Of a stretch of 64,000 bases of DNA, positions 18,363 to 56,378 are shown one piece after another; position 1 is the first letter of the stretch; each line of letters starts with the position of its first letter. A program made the position numbers and the translations under genes. The stretch is from NCBI GenBank assembly GCA_022711465.1, contig JAKLEZ010000026.1:1-64000 (forward strand), given 5' to 3'. This stretch comes from Planctomycetota bacterium (GTDB lineage: Bacteria > Planctomycetota > Phycisphaerae > UBA1845 > PWPN01). Under the pieces are notes generated by a model that saw nothing but the letters and a program-made list of their open reading frames with translations, was not told the DNA's origin and searched no databases.

Positions 18363-18380
18363 GGCTACTCCTCCAACCCT

Positions 18381-18399: not shown

Positions 18400-18474
18400 T
18401 TTTGGGGCTGCTGAGCAGCACTGCCCGACACAGGCAGGTACGCTAAGTAGCGTTCACGCAAGCCATTGTATCAC

Positions 18475-20312: not shown

Positions 20313-20318
20313 GAGAGT

Positions 20319-21071: not shown

Positions 21072-21138
21072 AATCCCCACCCTGGTGAGCAGGCGGGAAC
21101 TTCATCCCGCCGTGGCCGCGAATACGGAGCAGACATCT

Positions 21139-22320: not shown

Positions 22321-22350
22321 ACTCACCGAGTACTTCGAGCCACGGCGGCG

Positions 22351-27142: not shown

Positions 27143-27583
27143 TGTCGCTTGTCTTCCTTCTATTCATCCCCCACACGCATGAATGAGCCACGCGAAGGGG
27201 AATCCGGACCACGGCCTCACCGACCCCCTCCGCGGACGGAGGCCGCGAAATGCGGATGACGCCAGTGAGCCGCCGCCTCCGCAACGATCATGCCGCTCCG
27301 CAATCTGCTTTTCGACAATAGCTGCAGTAGCGTTTAGCGCCGTCGACGGATTCCTCGGCATCTCTCTGAGCCCACGACCACACCCCGGACAGAGCGTCTT
27401 CCCTGCCGACTGAGCGGCCCAGCAACAGGACAATATCGGAACGACGAAGATCCAAACGCCGACCGCCGTTATCGGTCGCCAGCGTCCAGACAAGAGGGCC
27501 GATCTCCAAGCCACGCCTGGGATCGGCCCGGCAGGTTATCGGAATGGGCCCGAACCTGGTTCAGAGCAGCCGGCCGGTGCCGG
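27143..27583. other. Intergenic region, no confident gene
   Basis: About 440 bp upstream of the kinase operon and downstream of the sugar-isomerase gene. One minus-strand frame (27509 to 27288, TTG start, no ribosome binding site) reads partly like protein and ends with YCSYCRKADCG. A second overlapping frame has a hydrophobic stretch and CPGC. Neither is convincing. The kinase promoter should lie here but was not located. Confidence 0.3.
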
Positions 27584-28618: not shown

Positions 28619-28658
28619 CGTCATGAACCTCCTTCTGTCCTCGATGAACTGTGGCTTG

Positions 28659-29462: not shown

Positions 29463-29465
29463 GAT

Positions 29466-30401: not shown

Positions 30402-30543
30402 GAGGATCCGTTCTCCCTCACTCCTCCAGACCGGTCCGCGCGAGCGAGAGGATGCCGAGCGACACCCCCTCGACGATTTCAACCGTAAACCGCCCCCGTA
30501 CGCCCGACGACGGCTCCGCCCGAGCCGCGCCGTCACCGGCCGA

Positions 30544-31884: not shown

Positions 31885-31968
31885 GTTGTTGACTCTCCGC
31901 CCGCAGGGCACCGGCGGCCCGCAGTCCCCCATCGCCGCATCCATACGCCGCCGGCCGCGACGCCCGTC

Positions 31969-33357: not shown

Positions 33358-33463
33358 GGTTCACCTCGACTCTTGCCGACTGGGCGCACACACCCGGTTA
33401 GGAAAGGGCACACGATCAAGCCGCAAAGTTCGCACCTCTGCCGCACCGATGCGCTGGCTGAGC

Positions 33464-33492
33464 TTTTAACACGACATCGGGGGCAGCGTCAA
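33464..33492 (-). promoter_or_regulatory. Predicted promoter for the left arm (DUF1080 direction)
   Basis: On the minus strand TTGACG (33487-33492), a 17-base spacer, then TTAAAA (33464-33469). It would give a leader of about 100 bases before ATG 33357. The -10 is weaker than the -35. Confidence 0.4.
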
Positions 33493-33501
33493 CAACCACC
33501 A

Positions 33502-33521
33502 AAAGAGGCAATAGTCTCTTT
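33502..33521. promoter_or_regulatory. Inverted repeat between the divergent promoters (candidate operator)
   Basis: AAAGAG and CTCTTT form a 6 bp inverted repeat around gcaatagt. It lies exactly between the -35 boxes of the two divergent promoters (33487-33492 and 33523-33528), where a regulator could control both arms. No regulator gene is adjacent. Confidence 0.45.
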
Positions 33522-33522
33522 C

Positions 33523-33551
33523 TTGACTGCTCGAGACGAGCCGGTCATAAT
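33523..33551 (+). promoter_or_regulatory. Predicted sigma-70-type promoter for the right arm
   Basis: TTGACT (33523-33528), 17-base spacer, CATAAT (33546-33551). It is close to consensus in both boxes. A start near 33558 leaves about 65 bases before ATG 33623, with GGAGG at 33606-33610. Confidence 0.6.
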
Positions 33552-33622
33552 CCGTGCTGTCCCGTTCAGGGGGCCGACACCCCCGCGAGCCCCGATCACC
33601 ACAACGGAGGGCACGACCCGCC

Positions 33623-34942
33623 ATGGCACCATACACCCCGATCAACCGCCGCAGATTCCTCCAGGGCGCCGGCCAGGCGGCGGCCGCCAGCATCGCCCTG
33701 CCCTACTGGATACCGTCGTCGGCACTGGGCAAGGCCGACCAGGCCGCACCGAGCAACCGGCTGGTCGTCGGCTGCATCGGAACCGGCGGGCAGGGCCGCT
33801 ACGACATGAACGGCTTCCTCGCCTCCGCCGACGCCCAGGTCGTGGCCGTCTGCGACGTGAAACGCGAGGCCCGCGACGCAGCTCGCGACCAGGTCAACAA
33901 CCACTACAAGACACAGGACTGCAAAGCCTACGACGATTTCCGCGAGTTGATCGCCCGCGACGACATCGACATCGTCCAGATCGCCAGTACCGACCAGTGG
34001 CACGTTCTCCACGCCCTGGCGGCCGTCCGGGCAGGCAAACACCTCTACGTCGAGAAACCCCTGGGCATGTGCGTCGAGGAGCTGAAGGTCCTGCGCACGG
34101 ATTGCCATCGCTACGAGCGGGTCTTCCAGTTCGGTACCCAGCAGCGGTCCAGCCCCCAGTTCCGCCAGGCGTGCGAACTGGCCCTCAACGGCCGGATCGG
34201 CAAGCTCCAGACCATCAAGGTCTCCGCCCCGGTCGGGGCCAACGAACGAACCGGCGAGAGCGGCTACACCGCGACCCCGGTGCCCGATGGCTTCGATTAC
34301 GACATGTGGCTCGGACCGGCCTCCTGGGCCCCCTACACGCCCAAGCGAACCGTCAGCCCGTATTGGTTCCACATCAGCGACTACTCGCTGGGCTACATCG
34401 CCGGGTGGGGCATCCATCACATCGACATCGCCCAGTGGGGCAGCGGGATGGAACTGACCGGGCCGGTTGAGATTGAAGGCTCGGGTCTGTTCCCAGGCAA
34501 CGACGGCCTCTGCGACAATCCGCTCAACTGGGATGTGAACTACCTCTACCCCAACGGCGTTCGCGTCCACTTCACCAGCGACGGGCGACAGAACCGACAC
34601 GGCATTCTCTTCGAGGGCAGCGAAGGCTGGGTCTACGTCAACCGCGAGGTCATCGATGCCAATCCCAAGAGCCTGCTCCGGGAGAAGACCAAGGCCGACG
34701 GCATCCACCTGCCGGTCAGCAGCCAGCACCAGCAGAACCTGCTGGACGCGGTCAAGAACGGCGGGCAGCCCGTCTGCCCAATCGATGTGGCCGTCCGCTC
34801 CGACACCGTCTGCCACCTGAGCCACATCGCCCTGCACCTGGGCCGCAAGCTTCGCTGGGATCCGGCCAAGGAGGAGTTTATCGACGACCCGGCGGCCAAT
34901 GCCCGCTTGAAACGATCCATGCGAACACCGTGGCACCTGTAA
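33623..34942 (+). CDS. Tat-exported Gfo/Idh/MocA-family oxidoreductase
   Basis: 439 residues from ATG 33623, GGAGG 12 bases upstream. Twin-arginine leader NRRRFLQGAGQ (8-18) with Ala-rich hydrophobic stretch. The NAD(P)-binding Rossmann start is VVGCIGTGGQGRYDM, then VVAVCDVKREARD, IVQIASTDQWHVLHALAAVRAGKH and the EKP motif YVEKPLGMCVEE. The second domain has WGIHHIDIAQWG, whose His residues are typical of the substrate site. The family oxidises or reduces sugar hydroxyls; exported members in planctomycetes are abundant and mostly uncharacterised. Neighbouring DUF1080 and ThuA genes suggest C3 oxidation of a glycoside. Confidence 0.9.
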   Translation: MAPYTPINRRRFLQGAGQAAAASIALPYWIPSSALGKADQAAPSNRLVVGCIGTGGQGRYDMNGFLASADAQVVAVCDVKREARDAARDQVNNHYKTQDCKAYDDFRELIARDDIDIVQIASTDQWHVLHALAAVRAGKHLYVEKPLGMCVEELKVLRTDCHRYERVFQFGTQQRSSPQFRQACELALNGRIGKLQTIKVSAPVGANERTGESGYTATPVPDGFDYDMWLGPASWAPYTPKRTVSPYWFHISDYSLGYIAGWGIHHIDIAQWGSGMELTGPVEIEGSGLFPGNDGLCDNPLNWDVNYLYPNGVRVHFTSDGRQNRHGILFEGSEGWVYVNREVIDANPKSLLREKTKADGIHLPVSSQHQQNLLDAVKNGGQPVCPIDVAVRSDTVCHLSHIALHLGRKLRWDPAKEEFIDDPAANARLKRSMRTPWHL

Positions 34943-34959
34943 TCTGGAGGTGAGGGACC

Positions 34960-36411
34960 ATGCCGATCAACGTGCTCATCCTGACCGGGGCCAACAACCA
35001 CGACTGGCAGGCCACCACACCGGTCATCAAGCAGATCTTCGAGGGCAACGCCCGCTTCGCCGTCGCGGACGTGATCACCGATCCGGCCAAGTGCGATAGC
35101 GCCACCTTCGCCAAGTGCGATGTGGTGGTCAGCAACTGGTCGGCGTATCCGGCCATGACCGGCCACCAATGGGGAGTGGCCGCCGAGAAGGCCTTCGTGG
35201 ACTTCATCAAGAGCGGGCACGGTTTCGTCGCCATCCACGCGGCCAGCGCCACCTCCCAGGATTGGCCCGAGCTCCAGCAGCTCCTCGGCCTGACCTGGGG
35301 GCTCGACAAGACCGCTCACGGCGCCTACCACACCCTGAAGGTCACCGTCGAAGACCACGACCATCCAATCACCAAGGGCATGCCCGACTTCTGGATCACC
35401 GACGAGCTGTGGCACAACATGGTCTGCCTCTCCGGGCAGTCGATTCACACGCTGTGCAAGGCATGGTCTGAGCCGGAGTTCAGCGGCACCGGCAAGTTCG
35501 AGCCGGTCCTCGTACCGACGCAGCTGGGCACCGGCCGCGGGCTGAACATCGTCCTCGGCCACGACGCGGCGGCGATGCGGAACCTCGCCTGGCAGACGCT
35601 GCTGCTCCGTGGTACCGAGTGGGCGGCCACCGGCCAGGTCACGTTGCCCATTCCCGAGCACTGGCCAGACTCGTCTGCCGAAGCCGTCGTCACCGGCGTC
35701 GATCCGGACGCGGCCATCAAGGCGGTCCTGGACTCCAAGTTCGGCCAAGACCGCCAGGCGTTGTTCGTTGTCGAGCAGCTGGTCAACGCTTCGACCGCCC
35801 ACGACCACGAGGCCGCCATCGCCGCCCGCAGGCAACTCGCGGCCGAGCTCGCCGCCGCGCTCGAAGCCTGCCGGACGCCGCAAGCCAAGAGCTTCCTCTG
35901 CAAGCAGCTGGCGATGATCGGCGGTCCTGATGAGGTCAAGAACCTCGCGACGCTGCTCGGCCAGGAAGACACGGCCGACATGGCCCGCTTCGCCCTCGAG
36001 CGCATTCCCGGTGAAGGGGCATCGCTTGCCCTCCGCTCCGCAATGAGCAAGCTGAGCGGCAAGCCGGCCGTCGGCGTGATCAACTCGGTGGGCAACCGCG
36101 CCGAGCCCCAGGCGGTGAAAGAACTGATCCCGCTCCTGAGCAACAGCGATCCGCCCATCGTCGAAGCCGCCGCCGCCGCCCTCGGCAAGATCGGCAGCCC
36201 GGAAGCAGCCCATGCCCTGAGCGCGATCCTGCCCAAGGTCGCCACCCCGATCCGAGCATCGGTCGCCGACGCCTGCCTCCGCTGCGCCGACAAGCTCGCC
36301 GCGGGCAACAAAGACGCAGCCGAGAAGATCTACCGGCTCTTCGACACCGAGACGGAGCTCGAAGGCCCGCGTCTGGCCGCCCGGGCGGGGCGGGTAGCGT
36401 TGAAGAGGTAA
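34960..36411 (+). CDS. ThuA-domain protein fused to HEAT repeats
   Basis: 483 residues from ATG 34960, GGAGGTGAGG upstream, 17 bases after the oxidoreductase. Residues 1-225 are a ThuA-like (glutamine-amidotransferase-fold) domain: VLILTGANNHDW, VVVSNWSAY, HGFVAIHAAS, and HDHPITKGMPDFWITDELWH. Residues ~230-480 are HEAT-type helical repeats (SFLCKQLAMIGG, ARFALERIPGE, AVKELIPLLSNSDPPIVEAA). ThuA in rhizobia acts with the Gfo/Idh/MocA protein ThuB in trehalose use through 3-keto sugars, which matches the neighbour here. No signal peptide, so it appears cytoplasmic although its partner oxidoreductase is predicted to be exported. Confidence 0.85.
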   Translation: MPINVLILTGANNHDWQATTPVIKQIFEGNARFAVADVITDPAKCDSATFAKCDVVVSNWSAYPAMTGHQWGVAAEKAFVDFIKSGHGFVAIHAASATSQDWPELQQLLGLTWGLDKTAHGAYHTLKVTVEDHDHPITKGMPDFWITDELWHNMVCLSGQSIHTLCKAWSEPEFSGTGKFEPVLVPTQLGTGRGLNIVLGHDAAAMRNLAWQTLLLRGTEWAATGQVTLPIPEHWPDSSAEAVVTGVDPDAAIKAVLDSKFGQDRQALFVVEQLVNASTAHDHEAAIAARRQLAAELAAALEACRTPQAKSFLCKQLAMIGGPDEVKNLATLLGQEDTADMARFALERIPGEGASLALRSAMSKLSGKPAVGVINSVGNRAEPQAVKELIPLLSNSDPPIVEAAAAALGKIGSPEAAHALSAILPKVATPIRASVADACLRCADKLAAGNKDAAEKIYRLFDTETELEGPRLAARAGRVALKR

Positions 36412-36448
36412 AACCTGCCAGACCGCAGGCAGCGTACTTCAAGAGACC

Positions 36449-36482
36449 GGGACGGCGAAATCACGCGGTGTTCCGGCGTCCC
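36449..36482 (+). terminator. Possible terminator of the right arm
   Basis: GGGACG (36449-36454) pairs with CGTCCC (36477-36482), with a smaller gcg/cgc stem inside and tttctcc after it. It is located 38 bases after the ThuA stop, between convergent genes. Confidence 0.4.
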
Positions 36483-36493
36483 TTTCTCCATTC

Positions 36494-37393
36494 TCAATTC
36501 CCCATTTTCGTCCTCATCACCAGATCCACCGCATCTTCAAGCTCGCGCATCGGCGTCTTGAGCGTCGTCCGCGCCACGGTGTTATCCAGGGACACATCCC
36601 GTGGCCGAGCCACGCGTCCGGGGATCACGCTCGGATCGTTGGGCACGATCAGATCGGGCGAGAAGCCAACGTGCGCCGCGATCCGTCTGGCCATATCCAC
36701 CCGCCGAACGACCTCGTTGCCCGCAAGATGGATGCGGCCCTGGAACTCGTTGCCCGCCAGTTCCAGCAACGCCCGCCCAGCCGTCACCACGTCAACCGGC
36801 GTGCGAATCTCCGCCTGGGGCACCCCCACTTGCCTACCCTCTTTCAACGCGACCAGCATCTTAGGCAGGAACGTATTGCCCCGCCCGAAGAACGGCAGGC
36901 CCATCACGATGGCCAGCCGGCCGATCGCCCAGTTCACGGCCGTCGCGACCACCGCCGCCTCGGCCGCCAGCTTCGTCTGGCCGTAGTAGTTGACCGGCCC
37001 GGGTGCATCGTCCTCGCGATAGCCGCCCTTCTCGCCGTCGAAGATCGTGTCAGTCGAAACATGTACCAGCCGCACGCCGCCTTCCCGGCACAGCTCCGCC
37101 ACAAGCCGCGCGGTCTCGACGTTGACCCGCCAAGCCTCATCCTGATGCGTCTGGCAATACTCGATATCCGCGATGGCCGCAGAGTGGATGACCGCGTTGG
37201 GGCGCAGCTCGTGGAACGCTCGCGTGACCTGCCCGGGCTCGAGCAGATCGAGCCGGTGCCAGACCAGCCCATCCCGCCGGATCGGTGGCTCACGGCCCGA
37301 GAACGCATGAACCTCCCAGGCGTCGCCCGCTTGGCAGACGATACTCCCTCCGACGAAGCCCGATGCACCTGTCACGATCAAACGTCGTGTCAT
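36494..37393 (-). CDS. RmlD-like NAD(P)-dependent sugar-nucleotide reductase
   Basis: 299 residues from ATG 37393. Extended short-chain dehydrogenase: dinucleotide motif VTGASGFVGGS (8-18), HSAAIADIEYCQTHQDEAW, VHVSTDTIFDGEKGGYRE, catalytic Tyr and Lys in NYYGQTKLAAE, and a C-terminal half with TPVDVVTAGRALLEL. The pattern is that of dTDP-4-dehydrorhamnose reductase, but no other rml genes are close, so it may act on another nucleotide sugar or be a general RmlD-type reductase. Predicted cytoplasmic. Confidence 0.8.
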   Translation of the reverse strand: MTRRLIVTGASGFVGGSIVCQAGDAWEVHAFSGREPPIRRDGLVWHRLDLLEPGQVTRAFHELRPNAVIHSAAIADIEYCQTHQDEAWRVNVETARLVAELCREGGVRLVHVSTDTIFDGEKGGYREDDAPGPVNYYGQTKLAAEAAVVATAVNWAIGRLAIVMGLPFFGRGNTFLPKMLVALKEGRQVGVPQAEIRTPVDVVTAGRALLELAGNEFQGRIHLAGNEVVRRVDMARRIAAHVGFSPDLIVPNDPSVIPGRVARPRDVSLDNTVARTTLKTPMRELEDAVDLVMRTKMGN

Positions 37394-37423
37394 ACCTGAC
37401 CTTCTGACCGGCCTTGGGCCGCC

Positions 37424-38719
37424 CTATTTTCGCACCCTGGCCGACATGAGCAGGTTGGCGGCCCACGGGGACAGGATTGCCCCGAGGACGAACACCCCGA
37501 ACAGAAGGCTGCTCACGGCCTTCACGAGTGCCTGCATCTCGGCGGTTTCCGCGGTGTGGGCGATGACCCCATCGAGGCCGAGGGAGGCGAAACCGCAGAG
37601 GGCCATGGCGGCGGTGAGCGACGCCATCGTCCGGCGCGGCCAGCCCTGAGGGCAGCTGAAGGTCCCGGCGAGGGGGATGATCAGCAAGCCGCACACGAGT
37701 CCGGCGTAGGCCATCCACGAGCTGCGGAGCCACACGGCGGCGCCGAGGGCCAGAATGGTTCCCAGCACGCACGCCCCTATCCAGTTAGAAGCACGGACCT
37801 CCTCGGGGCTCAGCACCATTCGCCCGAAGCGATTCAGACGCAGGAGCAGATTGAACAGGGGGTTGGCGACCCAGGACAGAAAGACGAAGGCCAGGTAGAG
37901 CAGGAGGAAAGGCAGAATGAACGGAGCCCAACCGGGATGATGCCTGGCGAAGCTGCTCAGCATGCGGAAGACGACGTAGGCTCCGATGATCAGGCCCCAC
38001 CGCACGCTGGGGCTGAGGGCGCTCATCCACAGGAAGTAGCGGAGCATCAGGCCGTACACGATGTTCCTGGCCCGCAGGGACGCGACGATGCCTTGCCGAG
38101 CCCACTCGTTCTCGGGGGCGAGTCGGAGGGCCTCGCGGAAGTGTTCGAGGGCCTTGGCCGGTTGATGTTGATAGAGGAGATTCCAGCCGAGGTTGGCGTG
38201 GGTGACGGACTCTTCCGGCTCGTCGGCCAGGGCGGCATGGAGTGCCGCGTGGGCTTCCTGTTTGCGACCCATTCGCGTCAGGGCGATGGCCCGGATGTTG
38301 GCGCACTGGGTGTTGCCGGGATCGATGGCCATGCCCTGTTCGGCGGCCTGGAGGGCGGCCGGCCATTGGCGCTGCTGGAAGAGGATGTTGGCCCGGAGGG
38401 CGTGGTACGGAGCCTCCTGCGGATCGAGTCGGACGGCTTCCTCGATGGAGCGTGCGGCCTCGTCGAGGCGATTGCGGTCGTGGAGCACGACGGCCATGGC
38501 GTAGTGCGAGAAGGACGCGTCCGGGGCGGAACCGATGGCGGCCCGGGCGGACTCCGTCGCCTCCTTGTACCTCTCTGTGCCCGCCAAGCAGATGGCGAGC
38601 ATGGCGTGTCCCCAGCCGTCGTCCGGCTCCTCGGCGAGTCCCTGGCGGAGTTCGGGTTCGGCGAGGTCAAACCGCGATTGGCCGATCAAGGCGCTGGCTC
38701 GTGCGAAGTGGATGTTCAT
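37424..38719 (-). CDS. TPR protein with C-terminal membrane domain
   Basis: 431 residues from ATG 38719, overlapping the TGA of the AAA+ gene (ATGA), so translationally coupled. Residues 1-220 hold about six TPR-like helical pairs (FARASALIGQSRFDLAEPEL, THANLGWNLLYQHQPAKALE). Residues ~230-425 have about five or six transmembrane helices (WGLIIGAYVVFRML, FILPFLLLYLAFVFLSWV, WIGACVLGTILALGAAVWL, AYAGLVCGLLIIPLAG, LLFGVFVLGAIL). It is probably a membrane scaffold working with the AAA+ ATPase; the gene pair is otherwise unrecognised. Confidence 0.75.
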   Translation of the reverse strand: MNIHFARASALIGQSRFDLAEPELRQGLAEEPDDGWGHAMLAICLAGTERYKEATESARAAIGSAPDASFSHYAMAVVLHDRNRLDEAARSIEEAVRLDPQEAPYHALRANILFQQRQWPAALQAAEQGMAIDPGNTQCANIRAIALTRMGRKQEAHAALHAALADEPEESVTHANLGWNLLYQHQPAKALEHFREALRLAPENEWARQGIVASLRARNIVYGLMLRYFLWMSALSPSVRWGLIIGAYVVFRMLSSFARHHPGWAPFILPFLLLYLAFVFLSWVANPLFNLLLRLNRFGRMVLSPEEVRASNWIGACVLGTILALGAAVWLRSSWMAYAGLVCGLLIIPLAGTFSCPQGWPRRTMASLTAAMALCGFASLGLDGVIAHTAETAEMQALVKAVSSLLFGVFVLGAILSPWAANLLMSARVRK

Positions 38720-46130: not shown

Positions 46131-46502
46131 TCATGCAGCGGGCTGGGCCAGTCTTCGTGACGCGGAAGCCGGACGACGCACCTTGCGGGCAGGGGGCTGG
46201 CACTTGGTCTTTGGCAAGGAAGCCGGCTTGGACGTCACCATGACGACGGAGTTCATGCCGTATGGGCCGTGCTCAAGGCCGAAAGCGGCGTAGTCCAGGA
46301 ACCACTCTCCGTCGGCGAGGTACTTGAATTGGTAGGAACCTTCGGGCAAGGTCAGGCGGCAGGTCCACTCGCCGTTTTCGAGGCGGGCCATGGGAAAGCC
46401 GGCGGAACTCCAGCCGTTGAAATCGCCGACGAGAAGGACTTGATTAGCCTCCGGTCTGAAGAACCGGAATTCGATCTCTCCTCCTGACACCTGGCAGACC
46501 AT
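46131..46502 (-). CDS. Stand-alone CBM48 (glycogen-binding-like) protein
   Basis: 123 residues from ATG 46502, AGGAGG 6 bases upstream. Residues 5-90 form an early-set/CBM48 domain: IEFRFFRPEANQVLLVGDFN GW with the Asn-Gly-Trp motif, then LENGEWTCRLTLPEGSYQFK and ADGEWFLDYAAFGLEHGPYG. Such domains sit at the N-terminus of glycogen branching enzymes and in AMPK beta subunits, where they bind alpha-glucans. Here it stands alone with a basic tail (residues 95-123, KVRRPASASRRL), so it may be an adaptor that targets a partner to glycogen. Confidence 0.8.
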   Translation of the reverse strand: MVCQVSGGEIEFRFFRPEANQVLLVGDFNGWSSAGFPMARLENGEWTCRLTLPEGSYQFKYLADGEWFLDYAAFGLEHGPYGMNSVVMVTSKPASLPKTKCQPPARKVRRPASASRRLAQPAA

Positions 46503-46771
46503 GGGCAACCTCCTTGTCTTTCCCCGCACCTGCGCCTCTTCCATTGTAGCGCACGCCTTCGCGTTGGACACTCAGGAGCATCTGGTCAGGCAGGAACGCA
46601 AATGAGGAACTTCTGCTGAACCGGTCCCGACCGGATGCGACCTTGGACCGCAGCACTCTCCCATGGACGCAACCGGCACGCCGGCGCGCTCGCTCGCCAA
46701 TCGCAGCAATCATACCACATTCTCGGACCTGGGGCAAATGAGAAAAGGAGAAACCTTGCACAAAGCGCAGG

Positions 46772-47668
46772 TTATGACCTCTTGAGGAAGCCAATGGTAG
46801 ACTCCATGATGCGATTGCGGAGGGCGCGGGTGGTTTCGACCTTAGTCTGTTGCTGCAGGTCTCTCAGGTTGGCGAGGCAGTAGTGACAGCCCAGCCGTTC
46901 GAGGTGAAAAGCGATGTATGCTCGCCAATCCGGTTCCAAGGTGGCGAGGAGGTAAGCGCCGATGGTACTGCGTTTGAGGCAGCTGAGCCGCTGGGACTGC
47001 CAGATTTCGCTGAGGAGGAGGTCGGGGGGATCGGAGTCGAAGCCGGAGGTGCCGCGCAGGACGCGATCGCGGATGCGACCCAGGCAGCGGTGCTTGATGA
47101 GGGCCACGTGTTTCTCGTCCAGGCCGACCACGTCGGCCACGTCCTTGTTGCGGAGCTGGCAGTAGAAGATCATCTCCACGACCTGGAGATCGCGGAAGTT
47201 GCCCGATTCCTTGTAGCCGTCGAGGAGTTCGCGGAGCGCCGTGGTCAGGAGTTGCCGCTGTTGATGATGCTGTTCGTCACGGCGGACGTACCAGCTGGCC
47301 GTGGCCACGGAGTCGGCCATCTGGATATCCGAGCCCTGCTGTGCGTCCCCCGAGTCTCCCTTGAGGACGTCCACGAGGAGGCACGCGTTGTCCTTACGGC
47401 CGCGGAAGGCATCGATGATCTTGTGCCGGAGGATGGTGAAGAGGAAGGTCTCGAGGCCGGCCTGTCGGCGGTAGTTGGGCAGGGCTTTGAGGAAACTGAT
47501 GAAGGTATCCTGGACCAAGTCTTCGGCATCGGCCGCCTGACGGACCTTCTGACGCGCAAAGGCCAAGAGCCGGCCCTGGTATCGGTCTACGAGTTCGGAC
47601 CAACCCTGGGCGGCGCCATGCCGGATCTGATCCAGCAAGTACTCGTCCGCCTGACTGAGTTCGCTCAT
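46772..47668 (-). CDS. ECF-type RNA polymerase sigma factor with Cys/His C-terminal extension
   Basis: 298 residues from ATG 47668, 10 bases after the stop of the membrane-protein gene. Sigma region 2 at ~20-92 (LVDRYQGRLLAFARQ, DAEDLVQDTFISFLKALPNY, LETFLFTILRHKIIDAFRGR) and region 4 at ~145-200 (DLQVVEMIFYCQLRNKDVAD, VVGLDEKHVALIKHRCLGRI). The extra ~95 residues end with a His255-x5-Cys261-x2-Cys264 arrangement (FHLERLGCHYC), similar to the zinc-binding part of anti-sigma factors. ECF sigmas linked to Ser/Thr kinases are known in planctomycetes; here the gene is downstream in the kinase operon, so phosphorylation by the kinase is likely. Confidence 0.85.
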   Translation of the reverse strand: MSELSQADEYLLDQIRHGAAQGWSELVDRYQGRLLAFARQKVRQAADAEDLVQDTFISFLKALPNYRRQAGLETFLFTILRHKIIDAFRGRKDNACLLVDVLKGDSGDAQQGSDIQMADSVATASWYVRRDEQHHQQRQLLTTALRELLDGYKESGNFRDLQVVEMIFYCQLRNKDVADVVGLDEKHVALIKHRCLGRIRDRVLRGTSGFDSDPPDLLLSEIWQSQRLSCLKRSTIGAYLLATLEPDWRAYIAFHLERLGCHYCLANLRDLQQQTKVETTRALRNRIMESTIGFLKRS

Positions 47669-47678
47669 CTCGGGGGCA

Positions 47679-49514
47679 TTATGCCACACACAATAGAATG
47701 ACCACAACACCTATGACTGCGGCGACACCGGCCGCGGTCCGCATCACCCAGAGGTAGTAACCCCGGGTCGCCGCGTTCAAGATCAAATACACGACGAAGA
47801 TCAGGGCCAGGAGGGCCAGACTGGATTTGACGCTTCGGCCCCAGGTTTCGCGCACCTGGTCGACGTGCCGGTAGTACCGATCGGCCAGCTTCTGGAGCTG
47901 CTCCGGGGGCAGCTTGACGAGGACGGCGCGACGATAGACTTTACCGTAGGGGCGTTCGAAGCCCTGGTTGAACTCGGTTTTGACGAGCGAACCGCTCTGC
48001 AGCTCGCCGGTGATCTGGTTCATGAGCCAGCCTGGTCGTTCGGCGAAGACCGAGACCGGCGTATATCGCCCGGTTCTGGCGATGTAGTCGCGCAAGTGCC
48101 GTTCGACGCCTTCGGCGGCCCGCTGGAAGGCGTCGGCCCGTGCCTGGTCTTCGGTCGGCCACAGCTGATCCGATTCGCCCAGCACCCATGTGCCCGGACC
48201 CTGCTGGGTCCACCGGGTGAAGTCCTCGGTCCATGGGGCGTTGACGAATCGTGCGGTGCGGACCAGCTCGCCACCCTGGGTGCGCAGGGTCAGCCGAATC
48301 TCGCCGACCTCGCTGTTCGCCGACTGCTCGGCGGGCAGGTCCCTGGTAGTCACGAACCGCATGGTCATGGCACCCGGGGTGGGTGCCGGAAGCGGGGCGG
48401 GTGCGGAAGTGATTTCGCGCACCGAATCTACTGTCACATGGAGGGGTACTCCTGGCGGGCGCGACGGTGACCTCACCGACGCGGCCAGTGTCACCTGCTG
48501 CGTGATCTGCTGGGTCATGCGGTCCAGGATAGCGCCGTTGAGGTCCTGGGACACGGAGAGATGGACGACGCGCAGGGTCTCATTGGGCATGAGTTCGGCC
48601 AGGAACTGGTTCAGGGAATGGCGAGCGAGGGCCACGGCGGCGGACTGCTTGGACGGATACAAGTCGGCCTCGAAAGCATGCTGTTCGCTGGGCGTCCACT
48701 CTACCGCGGTGACGGGGCCGGTGGAGCGGGAGCCATTTCCTGTGATCTGGCTCCGGGCCCGCTCGGCTTCGCGGCTGGCCTGCTGCCGCATCGCGGCGGC
48801 CTTGGCCCGGACGTCGTTACGAATTGCGGTGGCGTCTTGGGAGGCCCGCTCTCGAAGGGTTGCGCCGTCCAGACTCAATTCCTCGCGGACACTCTCGCCC
48901 AGGCGGATACGCTCATGCGAAGCGCTCATTCGGAAGGCAAAGAGGGAGAAGAAGAGCAGGAGGAAGATGCCGGCCAGAACGCCGATGACGATCCGCCCGG
49001 GCCGGCGCGATCGGACGAAGAGAGCAACTAGTCCGGCGATGACCGCGAGGAGGATGATCAGAGCGAGAATCGCGAGGTTCATGCGTGTACCTCCCACGGC
49101 GCCCGTGGGCAGGGGGCCGTGGTTGAATCCGAAATGCTCGCTGCCCGGGAACCTGGGCAGGTCCGGGGCCGGCGGGGCCACGGGCATCTGCGGAACTGCG
49201 GGCACGGGCGGTTCCAGGCTGGGTGGAGCGGGGAGGATCGTGTTGTCGGACGGATAGCTGGTTCCTTCGATGGTCACGCTCATCGGCCCGATGGTGGAGT
49301 GGACGGTACTGGCCGGCACGGATGAGACGTGACTGGCGTATGGCATGGCCACGAACCACAGCAGGCCCATGGTCACAGCGACGACCAGGACGACGCCGAG
49401 GGCGGTGCGGGCTTTCTGGGGGCCGATGACCAGGATGACCGCTCCGACGATCACGCCGATGACGAGCAACTCCAGGGCCCCGGGCATTCCGACCATGCTG
49501 AAGCTCGAGGTCAT
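47679..49514 (-). CDS. Multi-pass membrane protein of the kinase operon
   Basis: 611 residues; ATG 49514 overlaps the kinase gene's TGA (ATGA). TM helices lie near residues 10-30 and 38-58, 145-165 and 170-195, and 555-575 and 585-607. Between them: a Pro-rich segment (80-125), a helical stretch after TM4 (RERASQDATAIRNDVRAKAA) and a large soluble domain (~280-540) with EWTPSEQHAFEADLYPSKQS and WTEDFTRWTQQGPG. I do not recognise a family. Coupling to kinase and sigma factor suggests it transmits a signal or holds the complex at the membrane. Confidence 0.7.
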   Translation of the reverse strand: MTSSFSMVGMPGALELLVIGVIVGAVILVIGPQKARTALGVVLVVAVTMGLLWFVAMPYASHVSSVPASTVHSTIGPMSVTIEGTSYPSDNTILPAPPSLEPPVPAVPQMPVAPPAPDLPRFPGSEHFGFNHGPLPTGAVGGTRMNLAILALIILLAVIAGLVALFVRSRRPGRIVIGVLAGIFLLLFFSLFAFRMSASHERIRLGESVREELSLDGATLRERASQDATAIRNDVRAKAAAMRQQASREAERARSQITGNGSRSTGPVTAVEWTPSEQHAFEADLYPSKQSAAVALARHSLNQFLAELMPNETLRVVHLSVSQDLNGAILDRMTQQITQQVTLAASVRSPSRPPGVPLHVTVDSVREITSAPAPLPAPTPGAMTMRFVTTRDLPAEQSANSEVGEIRLTLRTQGGELVRTARFVNAPWTEDFTRWTQQGPGTWVLGESDQLWPTEDQARADAFQRAAEGVERHLRDYIARTGRYTPVSVFAERPGWLMNQITGELQSGSLVKTEFNQGFERPYGKVYRRAVLVKLPPEQLQKLADRYYRHVDQVRETWGRSVKSSLALLALIFVVYLILNAATRGYYLWVMRTAAGVAAVIGVVVILLCVA

Positions 49515-52500
49515 GAGAGGGCCTCCTGAGATTGGTCGCCGGGTAGGGGCGGTCTTTTGCGCCGGGACTCCGGCCAACCGAGCAGGATCAATCCGGCCAG
49601 CAGGAGACCGCCGCACATCAGCCACTCCTGCGTACGGCCCATTTGGCCAAGGGCGGTCTCGATGGCCGGTCCGATGCGTTCGTGGTTGAACATATCTACG
49701 ATTGGCGGCCAATTGACCGCTCCCATCACGTCCGTGAGGATACGGAAGCACCCGAGAAACGCCGTGTAGGCGAGGATGACGCGGCCGACGTGGGCGGCGC
49801 CCGCCCGTCGCCGGGCGATCAGGGTCAACAGCATGGCGAAGACCATGATGCCGCACGCCACGGCGACGAAGGCTCGCTCCATGAGGTTGGGCCAGCCGGT
49901 GTAATTGCCGAAGTCGCGTGTCAGTTGTGCGGCGAGAGAGGGGTCGGGGAAGCCGGCGGCGATCAGTGCGGGCAGATCGACGGCCGCCAGGAAGCTCACG
50001 GCCAAGCCAGCGAGGAGCACCAGACCACCGATCACGGCCAGGAACGGATTAGTCAATCCGCGAGGACGGGGGCTGGTCTGCAGACGAGCCGGTTGGGGCA
50101 GAGGCATGAGGCCGGCGGCGATGGTCTGCTGCGGCCAGAGTGCGGGCGGGACGGGAGCGGCGGGGGTGGCGGGCTCGACGGTGGGTACCGGCGCTGGAGG
50201 CGGGGCAGGCGCTGGCGGATGGGGTACAGGATTGGCGGATGGGGGGTACTTGCCGAGCTCATCGAGGCTCTGCCAGGCCAGCAGCCGCAGGCCATACCGG
50301 TCGGTGAAGCTGCCGCCAACGATCATGATGACATCGATCAGTGTACCGACGCCCAGGAAGCCCAGGGTGCATAGCCAGATCAGTCCCGTGCCGATCTTGC
50401 CGACGTAGAAGCGGTGGAGGCCGCACAGGGGGAAGAGGAAACCGACGCAGGCCAGCAGCAGAGCCCACAAGCGTAATCGTGCCGAGGCGCCTTGCACATT
50501 GGGCACATAGGGGGGGGCTGCCAGGGCGACCGCACTGGCGGAGAGGCTGCTGACGGTTCGATCGGGAATGCAGGCCAGGACGATGAACAGGATCGAGGGG
50601 AAGATGATGAAGCCCAGGCCGATCAGCGTTTCATCGTCTCTCAGATTGACGCACGCCATGAAGCAGACTGATGTCAGCACGGCCGAGGCACAGAGCATCA
50701 GCAGCACGGGGCGGATGAAGCTGTTCCAGCCACTTCGATAGGTATTCTTCACCGCTCGCACGAGGCAGAAGAGGGCGAACATGCACGCGCCGAGGCCTGC
50801 TGCGACGGCAATGGCCGCCTCCTCGCTGGACAAGCGGGCGATCCCCGCGAAGCAGAACAGCATGAGGCCTGTTCCGCTGAGCAGGGCGAAGGCGAGCAGG
50901 AACAGTCCGCGGGCCCAGCTGGGGAGCATGCGGCCACCGTAGCCGGCCGGATGGTGGGGTTGGCCGGGGAGCACTCGACCGCCGAAGGTATCGGCCGCCG
51001 GAGGGGGCGGAGGAGGGGGCGAAAGGCGTTCGTCGCGTGTAGCCGGGGCGGGTTGCGAGGCCTGGTGGACGGCTCGGTCGGCAGTTGGGCTCCAGGCCGC
51101 CTGACCTGTGGCGGTCGGGGCCGCGGCGAGGCTATGGTGTACGGACGGATCGAAGGGGGCCAGGACCTGGCTGACGAGTGCGACGCCGGCCATGATTCCG
51201 CCCGCCAAGGTGGCGTTGCCGTCGAGGATCATGGCCGCGATCCAGGCGCTCAGGCCGGCCCAGAAGGCGACTCCGAGGGAGAGTCTTTCGGGCCGACCGG
51301 CAGCGACGTGCCGTCGCCAATTGACCAGGAAGAGGGCCACTCCGGCGCTGAGCAGGGTGGTCATCAAGGTTTTCTGCAGAATCCAGGGTGCTGCACCGCG
51401 GCTGCCGAACGGACCGAGGAGGCCGGTCAGCGGCAGGAGCATGGCCACCACCAGAGGGGCGATGTAGATCAGCCGACCGAAGTCCGGGCGGCGTGTCTCG
51501 CCGGACTTGAGCTGTTTCATGCGTATGATCACGACGACGCCCAAGGCGCCGAGAATGACCGGGTTGAAGGCGATGAAGGACCAGGCCACGGCTGGGTCGC
51601 CCATTCCCAATTTGTGGGCCGCGAAGATGCAGGGCATGGTGCACAACAAGCCGGCGACGGCGGCGGTGCCCCCGAAAGCGAGGCGTTGGACGAAGCTGCT
51701 CTCCCCTGCCAGCTTAGCCGCGAATTTGGCCTGGGCCACGATGACTCCGCCTGCGGCACCCATGATCGCCACGAAAGCGAACAACGGCAGCCAAAGCGGG
51801 TTCGCGGAGCCCATCGAGCTGGCGAGGATTCCGGACCCACCGGCCACGATGGCGGCGGTGAGGACGCCGAGCAGGCGGCGCTGATTCCAGTCCAGCGGGT
51901 CGCGGGCCGGATCTGCGAACACCTTTGGCGAAAGCAACGGCGTGACGGGCGGTGGAGGAGGCGGAGGTGTCGCCCGTCCGCTCAGCCGATCGCTGAGGCG
52001 GGTGCCGACCTGGGCCATCCGTTCGCCGAATTGTTCGCCCCACTGCCCCATCCGCCGGCCGAACTCATCCATTCGCCGGCCGAACTCGTCCCAGCCTTCA
52101 CCGGTGCCGCCGGCGTGACCTGGGCCCGGTGCCGGTTCACCGAGACGAGCGCCGGTGTGCTCGGCGGACGAACCTGGGCCGCCGGCGGTCACCTTCTGGC
52201 CGATGCGTTCGGCGACCATAGAGAGGCTTTCCGGCCGGAAGACCGACACGCTATTGCGGACGTGTTCGGCGCCGAAGACGGCCTCGACCATTTCCTGGGC
52301 TGACTGGTAGCGGTCTGCGGGGTTCTTGGCCATGGCCCTTCGGACCACGGTGGCGAAGGGCTCCTCGATGCCGGTCAAGTCGGGCTCGCCGGCGAGGTGC
52401 TTCATGAGTACCTCGCCCGGCGAGGCACCCAGATAGGGTGTCTGTCCGGTGAGCATCTCGTAGAGCACGACGCCGAGGGCGTAGACGTCCACGCCGCGGT

Positions 52501-53053
52501 CGTAGCGACCCTGGCCGATTTCCGGGGCCATGTAGTGGACGGTACCGACGGTGACGGTCTGGCCGCTGTGCACGCTGGCGCTCATGGCCTTGCTGAGGCC
52601 GTAGTCGCCGATCTTGACGTAGCCATCCTCGTAGAAGATGTTGCCAGGTTTGAGGTCACGGTGAACGATACCCTGGTCATGCAGGTAGGTGAGTCCCTTA
52701 GCGATTTCGCGGAGGAAGAACGCGGCTTTCTGGGTACCGACACCGGCCGGAGACTGGTCGATGAGTTCACGAAGCGAGGGGCCGGAGACGTACTCCATGA
52801 TGACGAACGGTTCGCCGTCGGCGTTGTGTCTGACGTCGAAGATGGTGATCAGGTGGGGGCTTTTCAGGTTCATGCAGGCGGAGACGCCGCGGAGTTCGAT
52901 CTGCTCGTAGCCCTGGATGATTTTGAGTGCGACCTCGCGGCCGCTGTCACTCAGGGCGTAGTAGACTTCTCCGAAGCCGCCCCGTCCTACCGCGCGCTGG
53001 ACGGTGTAACCCTCCAGGGGGCGATCGCCGTGTTTGTAGCGGAATGCTGTCAT
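49511..53053 (-). CDS. Large membrane Ser/Thr protein kinase with TM2 domain
   Basis: 1180 residues from ATG 53053 (GGAAG 8 bases upstream). Kinase domain ~15-275: Gly-loop GRGGFGEV (23-30), Lys44 (VALKII), catalytic HRDLKPGN (131-138), Mg motif DYG (150-152, Tyr instead of Phe) and MAPE (175-178). All catalytic residues are present. After a linker with a repeat of EFGRRMDEFGRRM come several membrane helix blocks between ~410 and 900, a TM2-type module (LFPLCGLHRFYVGKIGTGLI), a Pro-rich stretch, and a final four-helix block (~1030-1170). No PASTA or other extracellular sensor is seen. It heads the kinase-membrane protein-sigma factor trio. Confidence 0.9.
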   Translation of the reverse strand: MTAFRYKHGDRPLEGYTVQRAVGRGGFGEVYYALSDSGREVALKIIQGYEQIELRGVSACMNLKSPHLITIFDVRHNADGEPFVIMEYVSGPSLRELIDQSPAGVGTQKAAFFLREIAKGLTYLHDQGIVHRDLKPGNIFYEDGYVKIGDYGLSKAMSASVHSGQTVTVGTVHYMAPEIGQGRYDRGVDVYALGVVLYEMLTGQTPYLGASPGEVLMKHLAGEPDLTGIEEPFATVVRRAMAKNPADRYQSAQEMVEAVFGAEHVRNSVSVFRPESLSMVAERIGQKVTAGGPGSSAEHTGARLGEPAPGPGHAGGTGEGWDEFGRRMDEFGRRMGQWGEQFGERMAQVGTRLSDRLSGRATPPPPPPPVTPLLSPKVFADPARDPLDWNQRRLLGVLTAAIVAGGSGILASSMGSANPLWLPLFAFVAIMGAAGGVIVAQAKFAAKLAGESSFVQRLAFGGTAAVAGLLCTMPCIFAAHKLGMGDPAVAWSFIAFNPVILGALGVVVIIRMKQLKSGETRRPDFGRLIYIAPLVVAMLLPLTGLLGPFGSRGAAPWILQKTLMTTLLSAGVALFLVNWRRHVAAGRPERLSLGVAFWAGLSAWIAAMILDGNATLAGGIMAGVALVSQVLAPFDPSVHHSLAAAPTATGQAAWSPTADRAVHQASQPAPATRDERLSPPPPPPPAADTFGGRVLPGQPHHPAGYGGRMLPSWARGLFLLAFALLSGTGLMLFCFAGIARLSSEEAAIAVAAGLGACMFALFCLVRAVKNTYRSGWNSFIRPVLLMLCASAVLTSVCFMACVNLRDDETLIGLGFIIFPSILFIVLACIPDRTVSSLSASAVALAAPPYVPNVQGASARLRLWALLLACVGFLFPLCGLHRFYVGKIGTGLIWLCTLGFLGVGTLIDVIMIVGGSFTDRYGLRLLAWQSLDELGKYPPSANPVPHPPAPAPPPAPVPTVEPATPAAPVPPALWPQQTIAAGLMPLPQPARLQTSPRPRGLTNPFLAVIGGLVLLAGLAVSFLAAVDLPALIAAGFPDPSLAAQLTRDFGNYTGWPNLMERAFVAVACGIMVFAMLLTLIARRRAGAAHVGRVILAYTAFLGCFRILTDVMGAVNWPPIVDMFNHERIGPAIETALGQMGRTQEWLMCGGLLLAGLILLGWPESRRKRPPLPGDQSQEALS

Positions 53054-53172
53054 CGGTATTCTTCCGTCTCTTTTCCCACACCGCACACCGCATAGAAGGC
53101 GGCCTTATTCCCAACCTCTCGTTCTCAGAACCACACTTGTGATCCGCGCGGCCGTGGTTGCGCAGGGCCTAC

Positions 53173-54786
53173 TCACACGGTCGTCACCACGAACGACACG
53201 GGGCCGACGCGGACATTGGCCCCGATGGGGATGCCCGCGGCGGCGTCCACCGGGGCCTCGTTGACCAGCACTTCGGCGTTGCCCTGGCAGAGCAAGCGTT
53301 CATCGCGGAGGTGCAGTACCAGGGGCTCGGGCAGCTGGTCGATGCGTACATGCGCGGTCGTTCCCGGGCCGAGCACCAGGGAACGATCCATAAGAATCAC
53401 CCGCCGGGCGTCGCCGCGGGGCAGGCGAGCGCCGTGCAATTCGATCATAGCGGACGTACTGGCCGCGTTGGGGCGTACGAACCGCATCCGGCAGCGAGGC
53501 GACAAGGCGATCCGATCGCCGTTTGCCAGGAGCTTGCGGGTCACTGGTGTATCATTGACCGCCACCGGCCGCTGGGCCACCAGAAAATAGTCCTCGTCGT
53601 TCCGCTCGATGGTGATGAGCGGGGCGTCGGGCTCGGCCATCAGGCCGATGTCCGGGCGCTGGGACGAGCTGACCGGTCCCAGGGTGACGCGGTGGCCGCG
53701 AACCACCAGGAAGCCGCCCACGCCGTCCACCTGGAGGAGGAACTGGGTCGGGAGGCCGGTGGCCGTTCCGGGTGTCGGCGTGAGCCGGGTCTCTCCCAAG
53801 TCGGCACCACCAGGTCGTTGATGACGCGGGTGGGCCGGTACGACGGCTCTGCCGGCCGGCGGTTCCACGGGCAGGGTTCCGGTGGCCACCATGAGCAGGC
53901 CCAAGGGTCCGCCGCGGACCTGTTCGAGCCGCTCGGCGGTCTGCTGGAGTGCGTCCAGGGATGGTCCGATCCAGGCGGCCTCGGGGAGTACCGTGTTCAG
54001 GCGTCGCAGCACCTCGGTTGCCCGCCGGAATTCGCCGCGTTCGATCCGGTCCGCAGCCTGCCGGCATTGGGCCATGACGCCGCGTAGTTCGCTGACCTCG
54101 ATGGTCTCGCCCATCAGACGGGCCAGGCGTTCGACCAGGGTGCCAGCCACATCCAGCCGTCCCTGGTGGATGGAGGAGCGGACGAAGCGGAGGACCTCGG
54201 TGCTCACCGAGGTGACCAAGCCGTCGAGTCTACTATTGGTTGCATGAGCCTGTCGGGCCTCGACCAGGGCGGCCATGGCGGCGTCCCAATCCTGGCGTCC
54301 GCGTGCGGCGTCGGCTCGGTCGAGGGCTGCCTCAGCCCGCGTCCGAGCGGTCGCCGCCTTCTCGCGGAGTGCGGCCACCTTGACGGCGTCCTGGTCCATG
54401 CTGTCGAGGAGTCCTTCGGCCATCGAAAGCCGGCCGTTCTCCAAGTGCTGGCGAGCGGCGGCGAGGGCATCTGCCCGGCGATGTTGCTCGCGTTGATCGG
54501 CCTGCATGGCCTCGTTGATTGCCGCCCGGAGTTCTGCGGCCTCATTGAGGTTGCCGCCGAGCTTGCCGGCCTTTTCGCAGTCGGCGAGGGCCTGCTGCCA
54601 GCGTGTGTCCGCCAGATGAGCGCGTCCGCGTTCGATCAAGGCTCGGGTCAGGCGGCCGATCACTTGCTGGCCGCGATAGTGAGCCCGCACGTCATCGGAG
54701 CAGGCCAGCTCGAAGGCCTCGTCCAGGCGTCCGTCCTTCAGGGCGGTCTCAGCTTGTCGAATCCGTAGGATAAGCACGGGATCCAC
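53173..54786 (-). CDS. TPR-like helical protein with FHA-like C-terminus
   Basis: 537 residues from ATG 54786. Residues 1-300 are alpha-helical, Ala/Arg/Glu-rich and TPR-like (LILRIRQAETALKDGRLDEA, WQQALADCEKAGKLGG, DWDAAMAALVEARQAHA). After a Pro-rich linker, residues ~350-435 look like an FHA domain (LVVRGHRVTLGPVSSSQRPD, ITIERNDEDYFLV, LLANGDRIAL), followed by a second, similar beta-rich module (~445-537: SLVLGPGTTAHVRIDQLPEP, DAAAGIPIGANVRVGPVSFV). FHA domains bind phosphothreonine, so this protein is a natural reader of the kinase encoded 119 bases downstream. Confidence 0.8.
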   Translation of the reverse strand: MDPVLILRIRQAETALKDGRLDEAFELACSDDVRAHYRGQQVIGRLTRALIERGRAHLADTRWQQALADCEKAGKLGGNLNEAAELRAAINEAMQADQREQHRRADALAAARQHLENGRLSMAEGLLDSMDQDAVKVAALREKAATARTRAEAALDRADAARGRQDWDAAMAALVEARQAHATNSRLDGLVTSVSTEVLRFVRSSIHQGRLDVAGTLVERLARLMGETIEVSELRGVMAQCRQAADRIERGEFRRATEVLRRLNTVLPEAAWIGPSLDALQQTAERLEQVRGGPLGLLMVATGTLPVEPPAGRAVVPAHPRHQRPGGADLGETRLTPTPGTATGLPTQFLLQVDGVGGFLVVRGHRVTLGPVSSSQRPDIGLMAEPDAPLITIERNDEDYFLVAQRPVAVNDTPVTRKLLANGDRIALSPRCRMRFVRPNAASTSAMIELHGARLPRGDARRVILMDRSLVLGPGTTAHVRIDQLPEPLVLHLRDERLLCQGNAEVLVNEAPVDAAAGIPIGANVRVGPVSFVVTTV

Positions 54787-54940
54787 TCCGCCTCTGGGTC
54801 AGTCCATTCAGGAAGACAGTTTCGGCCCACATCACGCCTAAGTATACCACTACGGTGCCCGTCTGAATCGTCTGGAGCGATCGCACGGGTCAGCGGCCGC
54901 GACCACCGCGACCGCTGGGACCCGTGCCGCCGCATATGAA

Positions 54941-55822
54941 CTAGTCTGCCGCGCGTTCCGGCACCATGACCACTGCGGGCGAGCCGGCTGCCGGGCGGGT
55001 GGTCGGGGAGGACGATTCGACGGTCTTGGCGGTATCGGCCTTGGTCTCGGGTGACAGGAACTCGTTGACCTGGGCGATCAGGTCTTTCTCATCGATCACG
55101 TCGACCGCGATCGGCTGGACGAACTGGGCCTGGTGGGCCAGGACTCGCTCGGCGACGTCGAGGCGTTTGCGGATCTGGCCGATGAGCTTCTCGGTCTGAG
55201 CCAGCTTGCTGTTGTCGAACTGCACATTGGTGCCGACGGACGAGGCCTTTACCAGGCGATACTGGCCCTCGAGGCCCTGGATCTGGTCCTGGAGGCGAGC
55301 CTTCTGGGCCTTGGTCTTATCCAGCATCTGGATGGCGGCCAAAAGCGATTTCTGCCGGGTTTCGAGGAGTCGCTCCTTGCCGGCGAGCACGACCTCGACC
55401 TCCTTGGCGCGATCGAAGGACCGGGCCAATTCCTCCTTCACCTGCTGGCGGGAGTAATCGAAGCCGCCCAGCGCGTAGCTAGCCTTTTCCACGCCGAGGG
55501 TGTCGCGCAGCCGGACGATTCGTGTTTTCTCCTCAGCGACGGCCTTTCGGCTCTGGTCGATGTCCGATTTCAGGCCGGCGATCTCGACCTCTTCCTGGGC
55601 GACGAGACGGACGTTGGCCTGCATCTCCGGCAGGATGTCGTCCAGGAGATCGCGGGCCCGCTGGAGTTCGAACTCGATGGGTACCGAATCCTTGACCGCG
55701 GTCTGAACCGACTTGGCCGAGCTGGACAAGTAGCTGAACGCGTCGCCACCGAAGAAAACCCCAGCGACCAAGCACACGCCGGCCACCCCGCACGCTCCGT
55801 ACTTGACTACCCGCATAATCAT
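54941..55822 (-). CDS. Membrane-anchored coiled-coil protein
   Basis: 293 residues from ATG 55822 (AGGAG 7 bases upstream). One TM helix at ~10-30 (YGACGVAGVCLVAGVFFGGD), then a long charged coiled coil (~45-240: FELQRARDLLDDILPEMQAN, LKSDIDQSRKAVAEEKTRIV, KAQKARLQDQIQGLEGQYRL) and a Pro/Thr-rich tail. This type of protein recurs in planctomycetes but I know no function. First gene of the leftward signalling run; the gap to the FHA gene is 154 bases. Confidence 0.7.
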   Translation of the reverse strand: MIMRVVKYGACGVAGVCLVAGVFFGGDAFSYLSSSAKSVQTAVKDSVPIEFELQRARDLLDDILPEMQANVRLVAQEEVEIAGLKSDIDQSRKAVAEEKTRIVRLRDTLGVEKASYALGGFDYSRQQVKEELARSFDRAKEVEVVLAGKERLLETRQKSLLAAIQMLDKTKAQKARLQDQIQGLEGQYRLVKASSVGTNVQFDNSKLAQTEKLIGQIRKRLDVAERVLAHQAQFVQPIAVDVIDEKDLIAQVNEFLSPETKADTAKTVESSSPTTRPAAGSPAVVMVPERAAD

Positions 55823-56378
55823 CGCAAATCTCCTTGCTACAAAAGGTTATGAGTCACCGTTTTCTACGGGCCTATTTCGGGCCACACAGGGATGGTCGAT
55901 TGGGCAGGATACGTATTTCCGGATTCCTGCGAGATTGTTGGCCGGTTCTTTTCTTGCGGGCTCTGGGTAGGACGCTCGGGAGGGGGATGGGACCGGGCAT
56001 TGGGCGGGTCGTGGTCGGCGGGGTGACTGTCGGGGCAGGTCCAAGGGATGTGAGACGGGCCATGAGGGAAGAACGGGGAGGGTTGTTCGCGCTGGGCCGA
56101 GGCTGTCAAACGGTTCGCGAACGGGCCGGTCTTGGGTGGAGGAGTCGCGGAAGCGATCTCAGGACGTTGCCGCTCTGACCTGCGAACCGGGGATGCGGAG
56201 TGGCCGACTGGGTTTTGGCGGCCCCGGGGTGGTTGTCTCCGGGCTGCGGCGACTTGCGGTCTCGGTGGCCGCGGGTACACTTCGACATGGTAGTCTGCCG
56301 TAGGTGAGCTGGGATGGAGTGTTCGGGCTGATCTGCGGCGCGAAGACGTCACACGACTTGAAGGGAAAGGCCTTCACG
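55823..56378. other. Divergent intergenic region, about 555 bp
   Basis: It lies between the kinase operon (minus) and the second Gfo/Idh/MocA gene (plus), so promoters for both should be here, but none with convincing -35 and -10 boxes was found. No gene was supported; long frames on both strands are Arg/Pro-rich shadows. Confidence 0.4.

Follow-up and report, generated by a model that had tools for sequence, protein, structure and literature searches.

Do the five adjacent genes at positions 46772-55822 of a planctomycete contig (JAKLEZ010000026.1, assembly GCA_022711465.1) form a single signalling system, and how would such a system control the sigma factor that it encodes? The genes encode a coiled-coil protein (CC), an FHA-like protein (FHA), a Ser/Thr kinase (KIN), a membrane protein (MEM) and an extracytoplasmic function (ECF) sigma factor (SIG), and they lie in the 64,000-nucleotide stretch of DNA that was analysed as a whole, hereafter the window. 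The reading at which we arrived, and to which we accord about equal belief and doubt, is that they make up a kinase-controlled, self-braked and autoregulated ECF system, i.e., one conserved signalling operon of the Planctomycetota. It is supported by single-copy co-occurrence and synteny, by the retained catalytic residues of the kinase, by a zinc anti-sigma-like (ZAS-like) domain fused to SIG, and by a conserved ECF-type promoter element. The original prediction, made from the sequence alone, missed the last two of these. The genes are as follows.

46772..47668, minus strand: SIG, ECF sigma factor with a C-terminal extension, 298 residues, DAED at residues 47-50
47679..49514, minus strand: MEM, membrane protein overlapping KIN by ATGA, with a pair of transmembrane (TM) segments at each of its N-terminal and C-terminal ends
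49511..53053, minus strand: KIN, Hanks-type Ser/Thr kinase, 1180 residues, about 16 predicted TM segments
53173..54786, minus strand: FHA, 537 residues, TPR-like helical N-terminal half followed by two FHA-like beta-strand regions (model pLDDT, i.e., predicted local distance difference test, 92)
54941..55822, minus strand: CC, membrane-anchored coiled-coil protein, 293 residues, one N-terminal hydrophobic segment (TM or signal anchor), with a family alignment

All five genes are real and read leftward as first described, and the ATGA overlap of KIN with MEM and the 10-base gap between MEM and SIG were exact. The likely starts of SIG, MEM and KIN, at the ATG codons of 47668, 49514 and 53053, respectively, correct earlier calls. 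The upstream gaps are loose (154 bp between CC and FHA, 119 bp between FHA and KIN). Pfam agreed with the annotation of the kinase, its TM2 module and the ECF sigma factor (Pkinase, TM2, Sigma70_r2), and the many membrane helices ascribed to the kinase were borne out by prediction; for the window proteins CC, MEM and FHA, no Pfam family scored above the cut-off.

Conservation of the gene cluster

The sets examined were 101 related genomes, 392 genomes sampled across the phylum, and 20 loci that represent other orders and classes. Homologues of FHA were found in 94 of the 101 relatives and a distinct SIG orthologue in 92, the E-values dropping from <1e-40 for the orthologue to an ECF background of about 1e-20; both orthologues are single-copy. 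The prediction that the five genes are one unit had been staked beforehand on their co-occurrence in relatives, and FHA and SIG were indeed both present in 88 of the 96 genomes with a strong match to either. In 49 of these 88, SIG follows FHA on the same strand at a distance of 2.5-6.2 kb; in the other 39 it was found on a different contig or at another place. KIN and SIG belong to a common cluster in 49 relatives and most loci of other classes, and the kinase is present in 79 of 81 loci, the remaining two being contigs that end soon after FHA. A survey of gene order, as had been suggested, found all five genes in the order CC-FHA-KIN-MEM-SIG in 12 of the 20 loci of other orders and classes; in more distant classes the order is FHA-MEM-KIN-SIG-ZAS-CC. 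Within the order, CC occurs only in the window's family and one further family, apart from one weak match; in the phylum sample it was found in 83 of the 392 genomes. Both CC and a strong FHA match were present in 57 genomes, and the two genes are linked in 51 of these: CC directly precedes FHA in 41 and follows it within the cluster in 10. In the other 6, it is on a different contig.

A profile scan of contigs with the SIG alignment mostly matched generic ECF sigma factors, but three named loci were useful. Since these sigma loci are carried by named Planctomycetota and Sedimentisphaerales metagenome-assembled genomes (with FHA in two of the three and CC beside FHA in one), we infer that the phylum of the conserved loci is Planctomycetota. 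The gene arrangement is conserved far beyond the window and beyond chance, and the claim of one conserved signalling unit, seen here as single-copy neighbours across order and phylum, stands. Two variations of the layout were also seen. On the single contig of one genome (L040, G006) the cluster is split, with CC-FHA at 1.85 Mb and MEM-SIG at 2.02 Mb, and only a 176-residue kinase fragment follows FHA. Elsewhere in the order (L055, L069, L078, L066, L092 and others), the window's single kinase gene is replaced by a run of two or three.

The sigma factor and its C-terminal domain

SIG has the sigma2 and sigma4 domains of an ECF sigma factor without sigma3; Sigma70_r2 matched with an E-value of 1.4e-18 and TIGR02937 with 73 bits against a cut-off of 42.9, whereas Sigma70_r4 reached an E-value of 0.0035 only, below its cut-off. 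No TM segment was predicted in SIG. A DAED-like motif with the ED core is found in 70 of 80 cluster sigmas, and most others readable at this position keep ED as well. In six loci of another class (L207, L208, L209, L210, L213, L216) the position reads HSED, TAED, ISED, SSED or ASED, and the Ser that often stands beside the ED core in these sigmas is a possible phosphosite.

46775..47017, minus strand: ZAS-like domain of SIG, residues 218-298, with invariant W223, C230, H255, C261 and C264

These five residues are invariant in 62 aligned sequences and follow the motif C-x24-H-x5-C-x2-C, so that four candidate zinc ligands and a Trp constitute the invariant set of the domain. The ZAS-like stretch is fused to the sigma factor in 59 loci and forms a separate open reading frame right after the sigma gene in 13 members of the phylum, a Rosetta-stone pattern that points to a fused sigma-brake. 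When aligned by HHalign with zf-HC2 proteins of the same order, the domain scored 95.8%, Cys and His being paired with Cys and His, while 20 column-shuffled controls reached 2.7% at most. A search of the PDB with the ZAS profile returned nothing relevant. The domain would be expected to bind zinc and may inhibit the sigma factor.

The promoter element and its candidate regulon

55891..55918, minus strand: ECF-type promoter element AAATA-N15-CGACCATC, about 70 bp upstream of CC, ungapped and with fixed spacing in 9/9 family loci
54841..54846, minus strand: TATACT, possible sigma-70-like -10 element of an internal promoter before FHA, in 6/9 family loci, within some 70 bp upstream of FHA

Throughout the window clade, the region upstream of CC contains tGAAATA-N15-CGACTACC free of gaps; in loci that lack CC, AATA-N15-CGAATACC was found upstream of FHA instead. 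The element tracks the first gene of the operon across the phylum, including after the loss of CC. The window site has the top score in the 64 kb window, but is part of the training set; its leave-one-out score of 10.8 was equalled in 3 of 300 shuffles. When matches to AATA-N15-CGAMTACC at 10 or more of 12 positions were counted within 300 bp or less upstream of the first gene, they occurred in 7/9, 58/70 and 8/18 loci, against 0.06, 0.74 and 0.16 expected, and upstream of 6/568 control reading frames, although these match scores are post hoc, as the consensus was drawn from the loci that were scored. A scan of spacer lengths guards against this: with a relaxed form of the element and lengths of 8-23 in 1.28 Mb, there were 27 matches at 15 and no more than one at any other length. 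It is to be noted that a reversed-pattern control was unfair, as the reversed pattern holds TAA and some matches were coding GAA-TAC words (for example, the cluster L311/L315/L317); we therefore relied on the spacer scan, the upstream controls and the recurrence of target families. Autoregulation by the operon's own sigma factor is the simplest reading of the element, which SIG would then recognize.

Upstream of CC, Gibbs searches retrieved the ribosome-binding region only, and upstream of FHA in the window clade no convincing shared motif was found, the best 14-mer scoring 16.7 (15-15.6 when shuffled) and the best 28-mer 26.9 (22-23 when shuffled), with the 28-mer matches scattered and partly within the CC coding sequence.

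In sister-family genomes, exact sites often lie 3-130 bp upstream of gene families that recur in several genera; the sites inspected for this purpose were partly chosen by eye from a longer list. The families include a 210-residue single-TM protein (7 loci, 6 genera), a membrane protein of 90-114 residues (5 genera), a multi-TM protein of about 285 residues (3 genera), soluble FGG-type repeat proteins, secreted proteins, a DUF4097 toastrack lipoprotein pair, an S49 SppA-like peptidase and S41 peptidases. Sites of the form AATA-N15-CGAATACC precede recurrent unannotated families of membrane proteins and small proteins in several genera (L337-L339, L348, L416; L343, L350, L356, L389, L405, L406, L415; L316, L331, L372, L373, L384). 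These sites are a candidate regulon of the sigma factor with an envelope theme. In sister families, the element stands before an SppA-like peptidase, a DUF4097 toastrack and small membrane proteins, for which Psp/Lia-type envelope stress responses may be a parallel; in contrast to these, the promoter here is of ECF type, and no regulator of the PspF or LiaRS type was recognized in the cluster.

The kinase and its partner proteins

52286..53008, minus strand: KIN catalytic domain (GRGGFGEV, VALK, HRDLKPGN, DYG, APE; Pkinase E-value 8.6e-48)
50327..50464, minus strand: KIN TM2 domain (Pfam E-value 9e-12)
53674..53679, minus strand: G370-P371 of FHA, which is G-R in most relatives of the order (phosphothreonine-binding Arg)

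All hallmarks of a Hanks-type kinase are found in KIN, i.e., the Gly loop, Lys, HRD...N and APE, although DFG reads DYG. The catalytic motifs are intact in the window kinase and most relatives, and kinases of distant classes have HFD instead of HRD. The MEM loop between the two TM pairs is variable, being short in most relatives and long in the window protein, which has two extra TM segments.

The FHA-like label proved right as to fold, even though Pfam is blind to FHA in the window protein itself: the model has beta-strand regions, PF00498 is recognized in 32 of 75 homologues, and residues 331-425 gave a PDB profile match to the FHA protein 3hx1 (E-value 0.002), which together argue for an FHA fold. 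A Foldseek search with the whole protein matched TPR proteins only, and the FHA half was therefore not probed by that search. The binding residues are another matter. In most of the order the first FHA region reads GR...ERHA, whereas the window protein has GP for GR and PDAPLIT at the SxxH stretch. Ten of the 11 window-clade proteins have lost both residues, with GP or similar in place of GR and no His at SxxH; elsewhere in the order the Arg is kept in 69/72 and the His in 62/72, and in other orders and classes the Arg is present in only 7/36. The loss of both residues speaks against the reading of phosphothreonine by the window protein, which is probably a scaffold instead.

Proposed mechanism of sigma control

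In ECF43 sigma factors the DAED charge is missing and is restored via phosphorylation (PMC8103513), and EcfK of Xanthomonas has a phosphosite, T106, in the linker region (PMC13147305). Other kinase-linked ECF groups of planctomycetes have been listed, and groups other than ECF43 keep the charges that bind RNA polymerase, which leaves their mechanism open (PMC8999054). SIG retains DAED as well; hence, a charge-restoring switch of the ECF43 type was rejected as inapplicable as it stands. The sigma2-sigma4 linker is nonetheless conserved in residues that could be phosphorylated: position 123 is Thr in 41 of 43 aligned sigmas and Ser in 2, and S125 is found in 43/43. Both the linker and the ZAS-like domain are candidate targets of the kinase.

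We propose that KIN, the small multi-TM protein MEM, the membrane-anchored CC and a cytoplasmic TPR/FHA-like adaptor would jointly control the sigma factor, which would be kept inactive by the zinc anti-sigma-like domain at its C-terminus or, in other classes, by the product of a separate downstream gene. A cell-envelope signal would activate the kinase complex, which would then phosphorylate the sigma linker, the ZAS-like domain or the adaptor and so relieve the brake; the freed sigma factor would start transcription at the AATA-N15-CGA(A/C)TACC promoter of its own operon and at a few envelope genes of sister families. The cluster as a whole probably watches over the cell envelope.

Several observations weigh against this proposal. 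A brake that is fused to its sigma factor is unable simply to dissociate from it. The 88-residue helical model of the ZAS-like domain had no significant match in Foldseek, and no anti-sigma structure was retrieved; in a Pfam scan, zf-HC2 did not reach the cut-off in any member of the fused-sigma alignment; and the spacing H-x5-C-x2-C departs from the canonical H-x3-C-x2-C of zf-HC2. SIG was not found beside FHA and the kinase in nearly half of the genomes of the order. Lastly, the window's own genome holds the strict element only twice, the second site being between converging genes, so that the operon's site alone is convincing there; at two mismatches it has no excess over the control, and evidence of a regulon thus comes from sister families only.

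The broader form of the proposal, which we put forward tentatively, is a phylum-wide switch in which a kinase releases the sigma factor from its anti-sigma, with the ZAS-like domain fused or separate depending on the class, as an autoregulated envelope-stress response. If true, such a switch would be a mode of ECF control apart from both the regulated proteolysis of membrane anti-sigma factors and the restoration of charge in ECF43.

Three other explanations were weighed. The kinase may phosphorylate the conserved Thr123/Ser125 of the linker and thereby activate the sigma factor directly, the C-terminal domain being only structural. The near-uniform conservation of the two residues, the location of EcfK T106 in the same linker (PMC13147305) and the existence of kinase-linked planctomycete ECF groups (PMC8999054) favor this possibility, but the T-P-S motif may be common among unrelated ECF sigma factors, the retained DAED makes the sigma2.2 variant of the mechanism needless, and neither the invariant Cys/His set nor the separate ZAS gene is explained; we regard it as unlikely. 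A less probable explanation is that SIG is an intracellular sensor of zinc or redox state through its ZAS-like domain, and that the kinase cassette shares its envelope physiology without acting on it. Cytoplasmic anti-sigma factors are enriched in zinc motifs and are often redox sensors (PMC7406223), and in many genomes the sigma gene is separated from those of FHA and the kinase; however, FHA and SIG track each other in presence and absence as described above, and kinase, MEM and sigma genes are tightly packed in the window. Finally, the relay suggested by the original prediction, in which FHA recognizes the phosphothreonines that the kinase produces and hands the signal on to the sigma factor, is very unlikely even though FHA adjoins the kinase in essentially all loci with a long enough contig and GR and SxxH-type residues persist across most of the order outside the window clade, because the FHA domain of the window clade is devoid of the binding Arg and His and the Arg is scarce in other orders and classes.

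Relation to known systems

With kinase control of a braked sigma factor as the preferred reading, the cluster can be compared to described ECF groups. That Ser/Thr kinases are linked to ECF sigma factors in planctomycetes, as the original prediction stated, is already documented (PMC8999054). ECF43 systems (EcfP-PknT, EcfK-PknS) likewise encode an ECF sigma factor beside a membrane Hanks-type kinase, but in ECF43 uncharged residues replace DAED, whereas SIG keeps DAED, has a fused ZAS-like domain, and is accompanied by FHA/TPR, CC and MEM partners (PMC8103513, PMC13147305). The groups ECF59, ECF61, ECF62 and ECF217, likened here by their description, share the planctomycete host, the kinase neighbour and a DAED-like motif (PMC8999054), and differ in that the window cluster has a ZAS-like domain, fused or adjacent. 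ECF52 (SCO4117) also couples an ECF sigma factor to a C-terminal zinc anti-sigma-like (zf-HC2) domain, but has TM, proline-rich and carbohydrate-binding parts in addition and is described as exclusive to Actinobacteria (PMC5826349, PMC8999054); no TM segment follows the zinc-finger-like domain of SIG, and the operon supplies the membrane parts. Class I ZAS pairs (RsrA, ChrR) resemble the system in their zf-HC2-like Cys/His set and in the gene directly after the sigma gene, separate in the 13 phylum loci, in contrast to the window domain with its H-x5-C-x2-C spacing, its fusion to the sigma factor and its link to a kinase.

New here is the six-part conserved cluster with its fused or split ZAS-like domain, conserved promoter and envelope-type candidate regulon. 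No description of it was found in the literature searched, although an earlier mention in the main comparative papers is possible. The genes stay linked across much of the Planctomycetota and apparently activate their own promoter, so that they seem to encode a signalling system that is widely conserved and, apparently, without a name. Conserved in one copy across a phylum whose membranes are unusual, the cluster gives geneticists a way into envelope signalling in these bacteria. The ZAS-like domain, whether fused or adjacent, provides a concrete target for planctomycete kinases, and the promoter an immediate reporter.

Neighbouring features

Directly downstream of SIG, the minus strand at 46131-46571 encodes a small protein with an AMPK-type glycogen-binding (CBM48-like) domain. 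The guanine-cytosine skew of the window flips its sign near 38 kb, from negative (18000-38000) to positive (38000-64000), which could be due to the orientation of the genes or to a feature of replication.

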